Assembly (NCBI GenBank): GCA_030949985.1 | Contig: JAUZRX010000010.1 | Coordinates: 149,148-213,147 of the forward strand | Reading direction: 5' to 3' | DNA length: 64,000 bases | Origin: Acidobacteriota bacterium | GTDB lineage: Bacteria; Acidobacteriota; Polarisedimenticolia; J045 | The notes under the pieces: generated by a model | Seen by the model: only the letters and a program-made list of their open reading frames with translations | The model's database searches: none | What the model was told of the DNA's origin: nothing | Position numbers and translations under genes: made by a program | Part shown: positions 2,346 through 62,738 of the stretch, one piece after another | Layout of the letters: each line of letters starts with the position of its first letter | Position numbering within the stretch: position 1 is the first letter of the stretch

Positions 2346-4607
2346 TCAGCCTCCGGCGGAACGACGTCGCGTCTCGGGCCGTTGGGCCGGCGGCGCCTGG
2401 GGGACGGTCTCCCCCTTCGCCCGCCGCTCCATGGCCTTGCGGTAGTAGCCCCGCCGGTAGTGGTAGTAGCGGTAGTAGCTGCCGGAACGCTCCTCGGTGA
2501 TCTCGCCATTGAGGACCACACCGACAAGCCGCGTCTTGACCTTGCGCAGGGCTTCCATGGCCTGGCGCACGGCGTCTTTCTGGGTCGCCATCGAGCGGGC
2601 GACGAAAATCGTCCCCTCCACCGCCGGAACGATGTTGAAGGCGTCGGCGAAGACCAGCACCGGGGGCGTGTCGACGATCACGAACTCGAAACGCTCTCCC
2701 AGGCGACGCACCACCTCGCTGAGCTTCCGCCGGTCGAGCAGGGTCGCCGGATCCGGCGGACAGGGCCCCCCGGGCACCAGGAAGAGGTTGGGATAGACCG
2801 TCGGCACCACCACGTCCTCGATGGGCAGGGTGCTGGCCAGCACGTTGGTCAAGCCCCGGTTCTTGTCCGCCTTGAAGACCCTGTGCAGCCGCGGATGACG
2901 CAGGTCGGCATCGATCAGCACCACCCCATGGCCGAAGGACGCGAGGGTGCGAGCCAGGTTGGCCGCGATGGTGCTCTTGCCCTCCCCGGGCAAGCCCGAA
3001 GTGACCATCAGCGAGGCCGGCGGACGCCCGGCCTGGGCCAGGAGCAGGGCCGAGCGCATGGCGCGGAAGGCCTCCTCCACGTCGTGGTTCCTCTGGGCCG
3101 CCATCATCGGTGTCGTGCCGCTCCGCTTGCGTGAGAAGGCGAGCCGCGGCTTGTGGGGCGTGACCAGGCGCGGAATGCTCCCGAGAAGGGGCAGCCCGGT
3201 CAGTTCTGCCAGGTGGGCGCCTCCACGGACCTTGTTGTCCATCGCCTCGGCCAGGAAGGCCGCGCCCACGCCCAGGAACAGGCCGAAGACCAGGCCCAGC
3301 GCCAGGTTGAGCTTGACCCGGGGGACCGCCGGACTCTCCGGCACGCTGGCCGGCCCGATGATCGCCACCTGGCGCTCGAGGATCTCCCGCAGGTCGGAAC
3401 TGCGGGCCACTTCTTCCCGGCGCGCCAGCAGACGCTCGAGGTTGGCCTTCTTTTGCTCGTACTCCCGGCGAAGCGACTCCACCTCGCTGGCCTGGTACTG
3501 CTTGGCGTTGGCCAGCCGTTTTTCCTGCTCGTAGAGCTGGCGCAGGCGCTGCTCCTGCTCCCGCGCGGCCACCAGGTCCGCCCGGGCGCCGGCGATCGCC
3601 TGGTGGTAGAGCTTTTCGGCTTCGGCGAGCAGATTCCGCCGCGTCTCCTGCTCGGCGGTGCGCAACTCTCGCAGGCGAGGCCAGTTCGGCCCCACCTTGC
3701 CTTCCATGTCGGCGATCGCGGCCTGGATCGACGCCAGTTGCTCGTGATACTTGAGCACCTGCAGGTTCGAACGCACCACGTCGAGGGCCATGGGCTCGGC
3801 CTGCTCGTAGGCATGGAGCCGGGCCTCGGCACTGGCCCGGCGGGACTTGGCTTCCGTCAGGGTCGCGTCGAGACGCTCGAGCCGGGTACGGCGCATGTCG
3901 CTGTCGGAAGCCACCAGCGCCGCATCGTGGGTCCGGGTCGCCAGCTCCAGCTCGCGTTCGATCTCCCGCAGCTCGGCGTTGGCCTCCTCGATGCCGTCTT
4001 CGATCACTTCCAGCGCCCGCCTCCGCGGAGCGAGACCGATCTCTTCGACGAAGAAATCCTGGTAGGCATGGACCACGGCGTTGACCACGTCGGCGGCCAG
4101 TTCCGGCGAGGCATGCCGGAAACTCACCCCCACCACGCTGGAGTACTCGAGCTGCTCGACCTTCAGCCGCTCACGAATCCAGCGGGCCATCCGCTTGTCG
4201 TCCGGTGTGGCGTCGGCGCTCTCCTCGTCGCTGGAGGTCAACAACTCGACGATGCGTTCACGAATCGGGTAGTCCTCCCGATGGAGTGCCCGCATCAGCA
4301 CCTTGGCGTCCTTGATCAGCAGGTACTGGGTCTGGTAGAAGCGCTGGATCTCGAACTCGTTCCAGACCATCGGCATCACGTCGTCCGACTCCAGCACCTT
4401 GGGCGTGGAACGTTCGATGAGGATCCGGGCGGACGCGTCGTAGAGCGGCGTGCGCAGGAAGGTCACCAGGCCGGTGACGATGAAAACCTGGGCGGCAATG
4501 GCGACCACCAGCCAGCGTCGCTGCCAAAGCAGACGCTGAACGGCTTTCAGACTCCAATCCCCCTCGGCGTTCTGCTCGGGAGCCATCTCGGCGGGACGAT
4601 CCTGCAT
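2346..4607 (-). CDS. Polysaccharide chain-length regulator / tyrosine autokinase (Wzc-like BY-kinase)
   Basis: Wzz-type membrane domain fused to a cytoplasmic BY-kinase, about 753 residues. Transmembrane segments lie near residues 29-46 and 436-453, with a long periplasmic coiled coil between them. The kinase has Walker A SGLPGEGKST (~540), Walker A' LIDADLRHP (~564) and Walker B VIVDTPPVL (~646). The C-terminus has a tyrosine cluster (YYRYYHYRRGYY), the expected autophosphorylation tail controlling polymer export. An ATG 27 codons upstream is possible, but the ATG at 4607 has a GGGGAGAG ribosome site and starts the conserved part. It is last in the minus-strand polysaccharide operon, 127 bp after the guanylyltransferase; a TATGTT-like -10 near 4655-4660 could give it its own promoter. 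Confidence 0.9.
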   Translation of the reverse strand: MQDRPAEMAPEQNAEGDWSLKAVQRLLWQRRWLVVAIAAQVFIVTGLVTFLRTPLYDASARILIERSTPKVLESDDVMPMVWNEFEIQRFYQTQYLLIKDAKVLMRALHREDYPIRERIVELLTSSDEESADATPDDKRMARWIRERLKVEQLEYSSVVGVSFRHASPELAADVVNAVVHAYQDFFVEEIGLAPRRRALEVIEDGIEEANAELREIERELELATRTHDAALVASDSDMRRTRLERLDATLTEAKSRRASAEARLHAYEQAEPMALDVVRSNLQVLKYHEQLASIQAAIADMEGKVGPNWPRLRELRTAEQETRRNLLAEAEKLYHQAIAGARADLVAAREQEQRLRQLYEQEKRLANAKQYQASEVESLRREYEQKKANLERLLARREEVARSSDLREILERQVAIIGPASVPESPAVPRVKLNLALGLVFGLFLGVGAAFLAEAMDNKVRGGAHLAELTGLPLLGSIPRLVTPHKPRLAFSRKRSGTTPMMAAQRNHDVEEAFRAMRSALLLAQAGRPPASLMVTSGLPGEGKSTIAANLARTLASFGHGVVLIDADLRHPRLHRVFKADKNRGLTNVLASTLPIEDVVVPTVYPNLFLVPGGPCPPDPATLLDRRKLSEVVRRLGERFEFVIVDTPPVLVFADAFNIVPAVEGTIFVARSMATQKDAVRQAMEALRKVKTRLVGVVLNGEITEERSGSYYRYYHYRRGYYRKAMERRAKGETVPQAPPAQRPETRRRSAGG

Positions 4608-46008: not shown

Positions 46009-46108
46009 CCCCCCCGGGAAGGGCTCTCGCGCTTCACGCCGATCCGGGTTAAGTTGACGCTCCCGGGAGGCGGCGCCGCCGCCGTCGACCCGGTCGAGGA
46101 GAGCAGCG

Positions 46109-46333
46109 GTGAAAGTGGTCATTCATTACTGCGGGGTTTGAAACTACGAGCCCCGGGCCGCGAGTCTCGCGGCCTATCTCAAGCAGCACCTGGGTGTCGA
46201 CGGCGAACTCCAGCGCGGCAGCGGGGGCGTCTTCGACGTGTGGGTGGATGACGTGAGAATCTTCAGCAAGCACGAGGAAGGCGACTTCCCCGAGGAGGCG
46301 GAGATTCTCCGGCGCATCCAGGCCCGCGGCTAG
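46109..46333 (+). CDS. SelW/Rdx-family selenoprotein with in-frame UGA (Sec)
   Basis: 74 residues if UGA at 46139-46141 is read as selenocysteine. GTG 46109 follows a GAGGAGA ribosome site. It begins VKVVIHYCGVU-NYEPRA, the CxxU redox motif (Cys8, Sec11) of SelW/SelT/Rdx proteins, and continues QRGSGGVFDVWVDD, then HEEGDFPE, all in family register to TAG 46331-46333. Rdx proteins have a thioredoxin-like fold and reduce thiols, probably via glutathione or thioredoxin. A hairpin suited to a bacterial SECIS lies right after the UGA, and a tRNA-Sec gene is in the same window. A stop-to-stop ORF caller will miss it. Confidence 0.9.
46142..46174 (+). promoter_or_regulatory. Bacterial SECIS element downstream of UGA
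   Basis: Fourteen bases after the UGA, GGCCGCG (46156-46162) pairs perfectly with CGCGGCC (46168-46174) around the loop AGTCT. The loop resembles the apical AGGUCU with its key G-U of the E. coli fdhF SECIS, recognised by SelB. Spacing and loop both fit a bacterial SECIS. Confidence 0.75.
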
Positions 46334-46349: not shown

Positions 46350-46574
46350 GTGCCGGACGGGTTCAGGGGACCCCGAGACGACTTCTACTGCTGGAAGTAC
46401 GGGGTCTGGTATTCCCTCAAGGACTGCGTGTTCCGGCATGCCTGGAAGACGACCGCGGTCTGCGCCCGCTGTCCCCAGGGCGGCGCCAATCTCGAACTGC
46501 TCCCCACCGTCCCCAAACGCCCCCGCTGGGCCCGAACCCTCTGCCTGGGCGCCCGTGAAGCCGCCGGGGAGTAG
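46350..46574 (+). CDS. Small Cys-rich protein next to the selenoprotein
   Basis: 74 residues from GTG 46350 with GGGAAGGGAG upstream, 16 bp after the selenoprotein stop. Cys14, Cys26, Cys38 and Cys41 (VCARCPQGG) form a possible metal site. The N-terminal half is aromatic-rich (DFYCWKYGVWYSLKDCVFRH). No signal peptide or membrane helix. Unrecognised family; the short gap argues for co-transcription with the selenoprotein. The adenosine deaminase-like gene starts 4 bp after its stop. Confidence 0.72.
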   Translation: MPDGFRGPRDDFYCWKYGVWYSLKDCVFRHAWKTTAVCARCPQGGANLELLPTVPKRPRWARTLCLGAREAAGE

Positions 46575-50276: not shown

Positions 50277-51827
50277 ATGTCCGTTCGCAAGTGGAGCGCT
50301 GGAGGTCGAGTCGCGATCGCCCTGCTGGCCGCCGCGACCTTGTTGGGCCTGGCGAACTACTTCGCCCACAAGTACTACACCGAGTGGGACTGGACCGGCT
50401 CGGGCTTCTACTCGCTTTCCGATCAGTCCCGGCGCCTGCTCGGCAGCCTCGAAGCCGATGTGCGCATGGTCTCATTCCTGACCGACGCGGGCCAGGCCGG
50501 CGGTGACGCCCTGGGCGAGATCCAGGCGGTCCTCGAGCGCATCGCCGCGGCCAATCCCGCCCGGATCACCTTCGAGCAGATCGACCCCTGGCGTGACCCC
50601 ATGCGCGCCCGGACCCTGCTCCAGGAGTTCGGCATCGATCCCCGCACCGGTGATCAACTCGACGTGGTGGTGGTGGAGTCCGGAGACCGGCGGCGTCACG
50701 TCCGCCTGGACGAGATGGTGGAGCTGGAGCCGGGCTCCTTCGGCGGCCCCACCGCGGTCAAGTCGCTGACCGCCGAGGGCGCCATCGTCGCCGCCGTCTC
50801 CGCGGTGACCCGCAACCACCGGCCGATGATCCGCTTCGCCACCGGCCACCAGGAACGCTCCATCGACGAGCCCCGGGAACACGGCCTTTCGACCCTGGTC
50901 GAAGCCCTCCGGCAAAAGGACATGGACGTGGAGCCATGGGAGGCCCTCGGTCGGCAGAGCGTTCCCGAAGGCACCGATCTGCTGGTGATCGCCGGCCCGG
51001 CTCAACCCTGGCTCGAGGCGGAGACCAGGGCCGTCGAACAGTACCTGGAGTCGGGAGGCCGCGTGCTGCTGCTGCTCGATCCCGTGCCTGTGCCCGGAGA
51101 CAGCAGCCGGCTGGCGGCCAGCGGGCTCGAAGCCCTGCTCGAGCGCTGGGGCCTGGAAGCCCGGGCCGACGTCGTTCTCGACCCGCCGCGAACCCCGGCC
51201 TTCATGGGACCGGAGACCTTCGTCGCCGAGCAGGTGGGCGCTCATCCCATCACCGACCCCATGGCGGGCCAGATGGTGCTCGTCAGCATCGCCCGCTCCC
51301 TGGCTCCCGCCGGTGACGGGCAGTCTTCGCCCCTGCCCGTAACGCTGCTCGAAAGCTCGCCCCAGAGCTGGGGCGAGACGACGCTCGGCAGCACCCGGCC
51401 GGCCGCTTACGATGACGCCGATCACCGGGGCCCGCTGCCCCTGGCCATGGCTGTCGAGCGCCGTGACGGTGGAGACGAGCCCGCACCGGCCGCCACCACC
51501 GACGGCGACGAGGCGGCGGACGACACCACCACCGACGACGAGCCCCCGGCCTCCCCTCCGGGGCGCCTGGTGGTGACGGGCGACGTGGACCTGGCTACCA
51601 ACCTGCTGATCGACAACACCAGCAATCGCGCCTTCCTGCTCAACGCCGTGTCCTGGCTGATCGACGAGGAGCGTTCGCTGGGCATCCCGCCCAAGGATCG
51701 CCAGTTGACCCGGCTGCTGCTGACCCCCGAGCAGAGCCAGGCCCTCTCGCTGGTCGTGATCATCGGGCTGCCCCTGCTGGCCGTGCTGATGGGACTCGGC
51801 ATCTGGTGGCAGCGCCGGGGGAGTTGA
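50277..51827 (+). CDS. GldG-like ABC auxiliary substrate protein
   Basis: 516 residues. One transmembrane helix near the N-terminus (WSAGGRVAIALLAAATLLGLANYF), a large periplasmic ABC_transp_aux-type part (FYSLSDQSRRLLGSL; ITFEQIDPWRDP; IRFATGHQERSI; LLLLDPVPVPGD), an acidic Asp/Thr/Pro-rich low-complexity insert (~405-425) and a C-terminal helix (LSLVVIIGLPLLAVLMGLGIWW). Starts 1 bp after the permease stop. Member of the gliding-type ABC complex. Confidence 0.85.
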   Translation: MSVRKWSAGGRVAIALLAAATLLGLANYFAHKYYTEWDWTGSGFYSLSDQSRRLLGSLEADVRMVSFLTDAGQAGGDALGEIQAVLERIAAANPARITFEQIDPWRDPMRARTLLQEFGIDPRTGDQLDVVVVESGDRRRHVRLDEMVELEPGSFGGPTAVKSLTAEGAIVAAVSAVTRNHRPMIRFATGHQERSIDEPREHGLSTLVEALRQKDMDVEPWEALGRQSVPEGTDLLVIAGPAQPWLEAETRAVEQYLESGGRVLLLLDPVPVPGDSSRLAASGLEALLERWGLEARADVVLDPPRTPAFMGPETFVAEQVGAHPITDPMAGQMVLVSIARSLAPAGDGQSSPLPVTLLESSPQSWGETTLGSTRPAAYDDADHRGPLPLAMAVERRDGGDEPAPAATTDGDEAADDTTTDDEPPASPPGRLVVTGDVDLATNLLIDNTSNRAFLLNAVSWLIDEERSLGIPPKDRQLTRLLLTPEQSQALSLVVIIGLPLLAVLMGLGIWWQRRGS

Positions 51828-62638: not shown

Positions 62639-62738
62639 GGAAGCGAGAGGGGTCTGGTGACCTCCGCGGCCTTCAAAGCCGTCCGCTCCGGTGGTCGCGC
62701 CATCGGAGGGTGGGTTCGATTCCCACACGCTTCCGCCA
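62639..62738 (+). tRNA. selC: tRNA-Sec (UCA anticodon)
   Basis: 100 nt including encoded CCA. The acceptor stem is GGAAGCG/CGCTTCC with a G discriminator. The anticodon loop CTTCAAA carries TCA (62673-62675) on a 5-bp stem. The variable arm is a 9-bp helix (CTCCGGTGG with CCATCGGAG) as required for selenocysteine tRNA. The T arm is GTGGG-TTCGATT-CCCAC. The longer stem and arm are recognised by SelA and SelB. Resembles E. coli selC overall. No selA, selB or selD occurs in this window. Confidence 0.92.

Follow-up and report, generated by a model that had tools for sequence, protein, structure and literature searches.

The stretch of DNA analysed here (64,000 nucleotides, hereafter the window) carries a small gene whose in-frame UGA at 46139 is predicted, with high confidence, to be decoded as selenocysteine (Sec) through a SECIS element and SelB, giving a 74-residue redox protein of the Rdx (SelW-type) family. 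In the proposed mechanism, SelB would bind a hairpin with the loop AGUCU just downstream and bring Sec-tRNA-Sec to the UGA. Sec11 would then be inserted and reading would go on to the TAG ending at 46333. Cys8 and Sec11 would form the CxxU redox pair of the product, and by analogy with SelW its role is most likely that of a thiol or peroxide reductant.

The rdx gene and its UGA in relatives

The rdx (selW-like) CDS occupies 46109–46333 of the plus strand, from the GTG at 46109 to the TAG at 46331–46333. Its 74 codons, Sec11 included, form an open frame interrupted solely by the TGA at 46139–46141. The translation is VKVVIHYCGVUNYEPRAASLAAYLKQHLGVDGELQRGSGGVFDVWVDDVRIFSKHEEGDFPEEAEILRRIQARG. 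A Shine-Dalgarno-like GAGGAG (46096–46101, plus strand) lies 7 nt upstream of the GTG, a codon that is ATG in most relatives. The redox site is C8-G-V-U11, both of whose redox positions are invariant in the orthologue alignment (where U is written as C). The initial annotation had read this frame with Cys-x-x-UGA at the redox position and with the segments RGSGGVF and EGDFPE in register after the UGA. All of these details were present, and the proposed Rdx/SelW family was confirmed by matches to Pfam Rdx (PF10262; E 3e-20, 72.6 bits against a cut-off of 22.6) and to NCBIfam TIGR02174 (CXXU_selWTH; E 3.5e-16, 59.2 bits against 34.2). The orthologue profile also matched solved Rdx/SelW structures such as 3dex, 2fa8, 2p0g and 2npb, the last of which is selenoprotein W. 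A thioredoxin-like fold and redox activity are predicted from these matches. Judged by its sequence, 46109–46333 is a genuine small redox-protein gene of the Rdx/SelW-like family. Its recognition corrects the annotation, as standard gene callers would break or miss the CDS.

The coding character of the region continues beyond the UGA. Among the 567 window TGAs that are followed by at least 30 codons of read-through, TGA 46139 has the best downstream coding score. The protein is 89% identical to the Rdx from the other genome of the genus, and the conservation spans the UGA, with N12, Y13, P15, A17, L20, G40, F42, K54, F60 and P61 invariant. After the UGA, pN/pS is 0.25 when the other genome of the genus is the reference and 0.25–0.49 across the comparisons, and the post-UGA region is under purifying selection.

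An Rdx match was found in 34 of the 41 genomes of the class, and outside one family (f6) each carries exactly one in-frame stop, which is always TGA. The same holds for every non-f6 Rdx match in the 60 relatives surveyed. This TGA recurs in more than 25 genomes, which represent many families within the class and phylum, at an identical alignment position in all orthologues read for position, and neither TAA nor TAG occurs as the in-frame stop in any orthologue from the 60 relatives or the 41 class genomes. Family f6 alone departs from this pattern, having Cys in an Rdx paralogue that is more distant. Rdx orthologues in the class, among which no Cys replacement was seen, appear to be obligate Sec forms. 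The initial annotation had also considered that close relatives might have a true stop and a start downstream of the UGA, and such an arrangement was shown by no relative. A plasmid search returned just distant Rdx proteins of less than 40% identity. The single match from a pattern search of the contigs with Sec read as Cys (L067) was attributed to chance, having no Rdx gene around it.

The SECIS hairpin

The initial annotation had described a 7-bp hairpin with the loop AGTCT starting 14 nt after the UGA. It is present exactly so on the plus strand (46156–46174), positions 46156–46162 pairing with 46168–46174. Published rules for the bacterial SECIS (bSECIS) ask for a loop of 3–9 nt, a stem of 4–16 bp, an MFE <= -7.5, a G within the first two loop positions and a location 16–37 nt from the UGA (PMC13188914). 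The hairpin lies within every one of these limits, with a 5-nt loop AGUCU, a stem of 7 bp, G as the second loop base, a distance of 21 nt and an MFE of -14.7 kcal/mol when folded in isolation. Taken alone, however, it proves little, because a rule-satisfying hairpin follows 119 of the 567 window TGAs (about 21%), and when the A-A-S-L-A-A stretch was recoded for the same amino acids all 7 pairs still formed in about 9% of trials. By itself the hairpin is weak evidence and not significant, such a structure being nothing out of the ordinary where GC-rich DNA encodes A-A-x-L-A-A. Its significance comes from the comparison with relatives.

In 29 orthologue sequences, 91.6% of the stem cells are paired and five of the seven pairs change on both sides. 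Doubly changed cells number 21, against 6.1 in shuffled alignments, and the observed covariation score was reached in none of the 500 shuffles that served as the null. The signal was destroyed when the partner was slid, and RNAalifold on its own recovered the central part of this helix. The strongest pair is the loop-closing one (columns 24–30), which is C-G in 19 sequences and G-C in 10 with no mismatch, and which connects two wobble positions, one in an Ala codon and one in a Leu codon. Where the loop codon encodes Ser or Gly, it always takes the rare NGU form. For Ser it is AGT (14/14) and for Gly it is GGT (14/14), while in the genes of the window AGT makes up 6.4% of Ser codons and GGT 12.5% of Gly codons. 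Other choices at the pair and the loop codon would leave the amino-acid sequence unchanged, so the selection on them most likely targets the RNA. The G-C form of pair 24–30 is common to the window's own family, and the sequence counts therefore overstate the number of independent changes; additional changes at pairs 21–33, 23–31 and 22–32 come from other lineages. More distant paralogues that contain a UGA (L064 and L065) also have this loop and stem. A SECIS covariance model (R1) matched the window hairpin with 69.7 bits, the window sequence having been in its training set, and gave no other convincing SECIS within the window. Together, the covariation and the forced rare codons argue that the SelW SECIS of this lineage is under selection at the RNA level.

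Sec machinery and alternative readings

A tRNA-Sec gene with the anticodon TCA lies in the same window at 62639–62738 on the plus strand, 16.3 kb downstream of rdx, and was detected by Rfam (RF01852; 70.9 bits, E 1.7e-12) and by ARAGORN. ARAGORN also called two odd tRNA-Arg genes on the minus strand, at 3340–3435 (96 nt) and 50765–50848 (84 nt). Rfam did not report them at its gathering threshold, and they are perhaps false. The genome also encodes SelD (367 bits) and SelB (328 bits), the latter complete with the winged-helix domains of its C-terminal part. In the initial annotation, the lack of selA, selB or selD had been named as a ground for rejecting the Sec reading; selB and selD are present, and selA was not found in this 133-contig assembly with either of two models. 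Of the 60 relatives, 54 have it, the second genome of the genus among them. In relatives its neighbours are a TPR gene and a conserved hypothetical gene, joined in some of them by a gene for a YchF-type GTPase. The YchF-type GTPase and the conserved hypothetical gene are likewise absent from this assembly. When the DNA of the selA contig from the same genus was compared with this genome, short fragments matched and nearly all of the region was absent. Because selA is missing together with a syntenic block, in an assembly of 133 contigs, its absence is likely an assembly gap, and we infer that the organism itself has selA.

Three other explanations of the UGA were weighed. A pseudogene or a sequencing error, in which a Cys codon (TGC or TGT) was turned into TGA, would need only one base change to account for the single TGA. 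Its probability is nevertheless negligible, as the same codon recurs in genomes of numerous families across the class and the phylum, the region after it is under purifying selection and the hairpin covaries. Translation of the UGA by generic readthrough, or as Trp or Cys under a reassigned code, would agree with the lack of selA in the assembly. However, TGA still terminates 18 of the 25 long ORFs in the window, and therefore the codon is not reassigned; tRNA-Sec, SelB and SelD are all present, the SECIS-type hairpin is conserved and relatives of the family have selA. This explanation is regarded as very improbable.

The same low standing is given to a recent loss of selA in the lineage, which would leave the UGA gene as a dead relic in this strain. 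The joint absence of selA and of two genes that neighbour it in several relatives is what a real deletion would produce. Against this, the genome retains tRNA-Sec, selB, selD and two UGA-containing Rdx genes in intact form, selA is present in the second genome of the genus, and in an assembly of 133 contigs a gap is the simpler reading. Decoding of UGA 46139 as Sec is the explanation that we favour.

The second of these Rdx genes, whose product begins MQPVTIRYCEQU, lies beside selD on the minus strand (L002 1501–1647; G000:C49:51326–51472), with a weak SECIS model match of 15 bits in the right place. Its neighbours are a TusA-family gene, a class-V aminotransferase gene, which is likely a cysteine desulfurase, and a gene for a Se/S-carrier-SelD fusion. 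In this SelD (L011 1414–2700, minus strand) a Se_S_carrier domain (PF11823) is fused at the N-terminus, and the fusion may channel selenium. A rather unlikely extension is that the second Rdx would be a selenoprotein with a part of its own in handling selenium for selenophosphate synthesis, and so make a self-reinforcing loop.

Gene context and comparison with known systems

The usual gene order in the window's own family (f1) is Hpt, response regulator/GGDEF, rdx, a small Cys-rich protein and adenosine deaminase. The small protein of the window (46350–46574, plus strand; 74 residues) is conserved and is the next gene downstream of rdx in most of the family; it is context and not part of the Sec mechanism. 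Its Cys14, Cys26, Cys38, Cys41 and His30 are invariant, and neither Pfam nor NCBIfam gave a match for it. Most genomes of the class carry one copy, which adjoins rdx in f1 only, and no homologues were found in the other classes sampled. It may represent a new family of small metal-binding proteins. A proline dehydrogenase gene closely follows rdx in three further families of the class (L026 1748–2647, plus strand, for which the Pfam test was made, and similarly L022–L024, L030–L032, L061 and L062). A redox link between rdx and proline catabolism is possible; a literature search on SelW-like proteins with proline dehydrogenase found nothing. As the neighbours differ between f1 and these families, gene context does not fix the substrate of the protein.

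Bacterial SelW-like proteins were already counted in 2006 (PMC1794560) and are among the most widespread marine selenoproteins (PMC2398784). Those with CxxU are listed as selenoproteins predicted with high confidence (PMC13188914); since that list still gives the family as predicted, a direct demonstration of selenium in a SelW-like protein from bacteria would be of value. Cys homologues of SelW-like proteins were reported to be very few or lacking in organisms that use Sec (PMC1794560), and the lack of Cys replacement among the orthologues of the class agrees with this remark. The present protein shares with the bacterial SelW-like proteins (PF10262/TIGR02174) its size, the CxxU motif, the Rdx family and a UGA with a downstream bSECIS. 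No qualitative difference from them was found; here the form is lineage-specific, with the signature C-G-V-U-N-Y-x-P. Cys-containing Rdx proteins, such as Atu0228 (PDB 2fa8) and the paralogue of family f6, belong to the same Pfam family, but they have CxxC in place of CxxU and are more distant relatives instead of direct orthologues. The SECIS of E. coli fdhF has a short upper stem, and SelB reads a G-U motif in its small apical loop. Compared by description, the present hairpin is alike in its short upper stem and small G-U loop, whereas it has the loop AGUCU or GGUCU on a stem of 6–7 bp and differs in stem sequence and spacing. Bacterial CxxU SelW-like proteins have long been known, and the gene is an ordinary, well-supported further member of this group.
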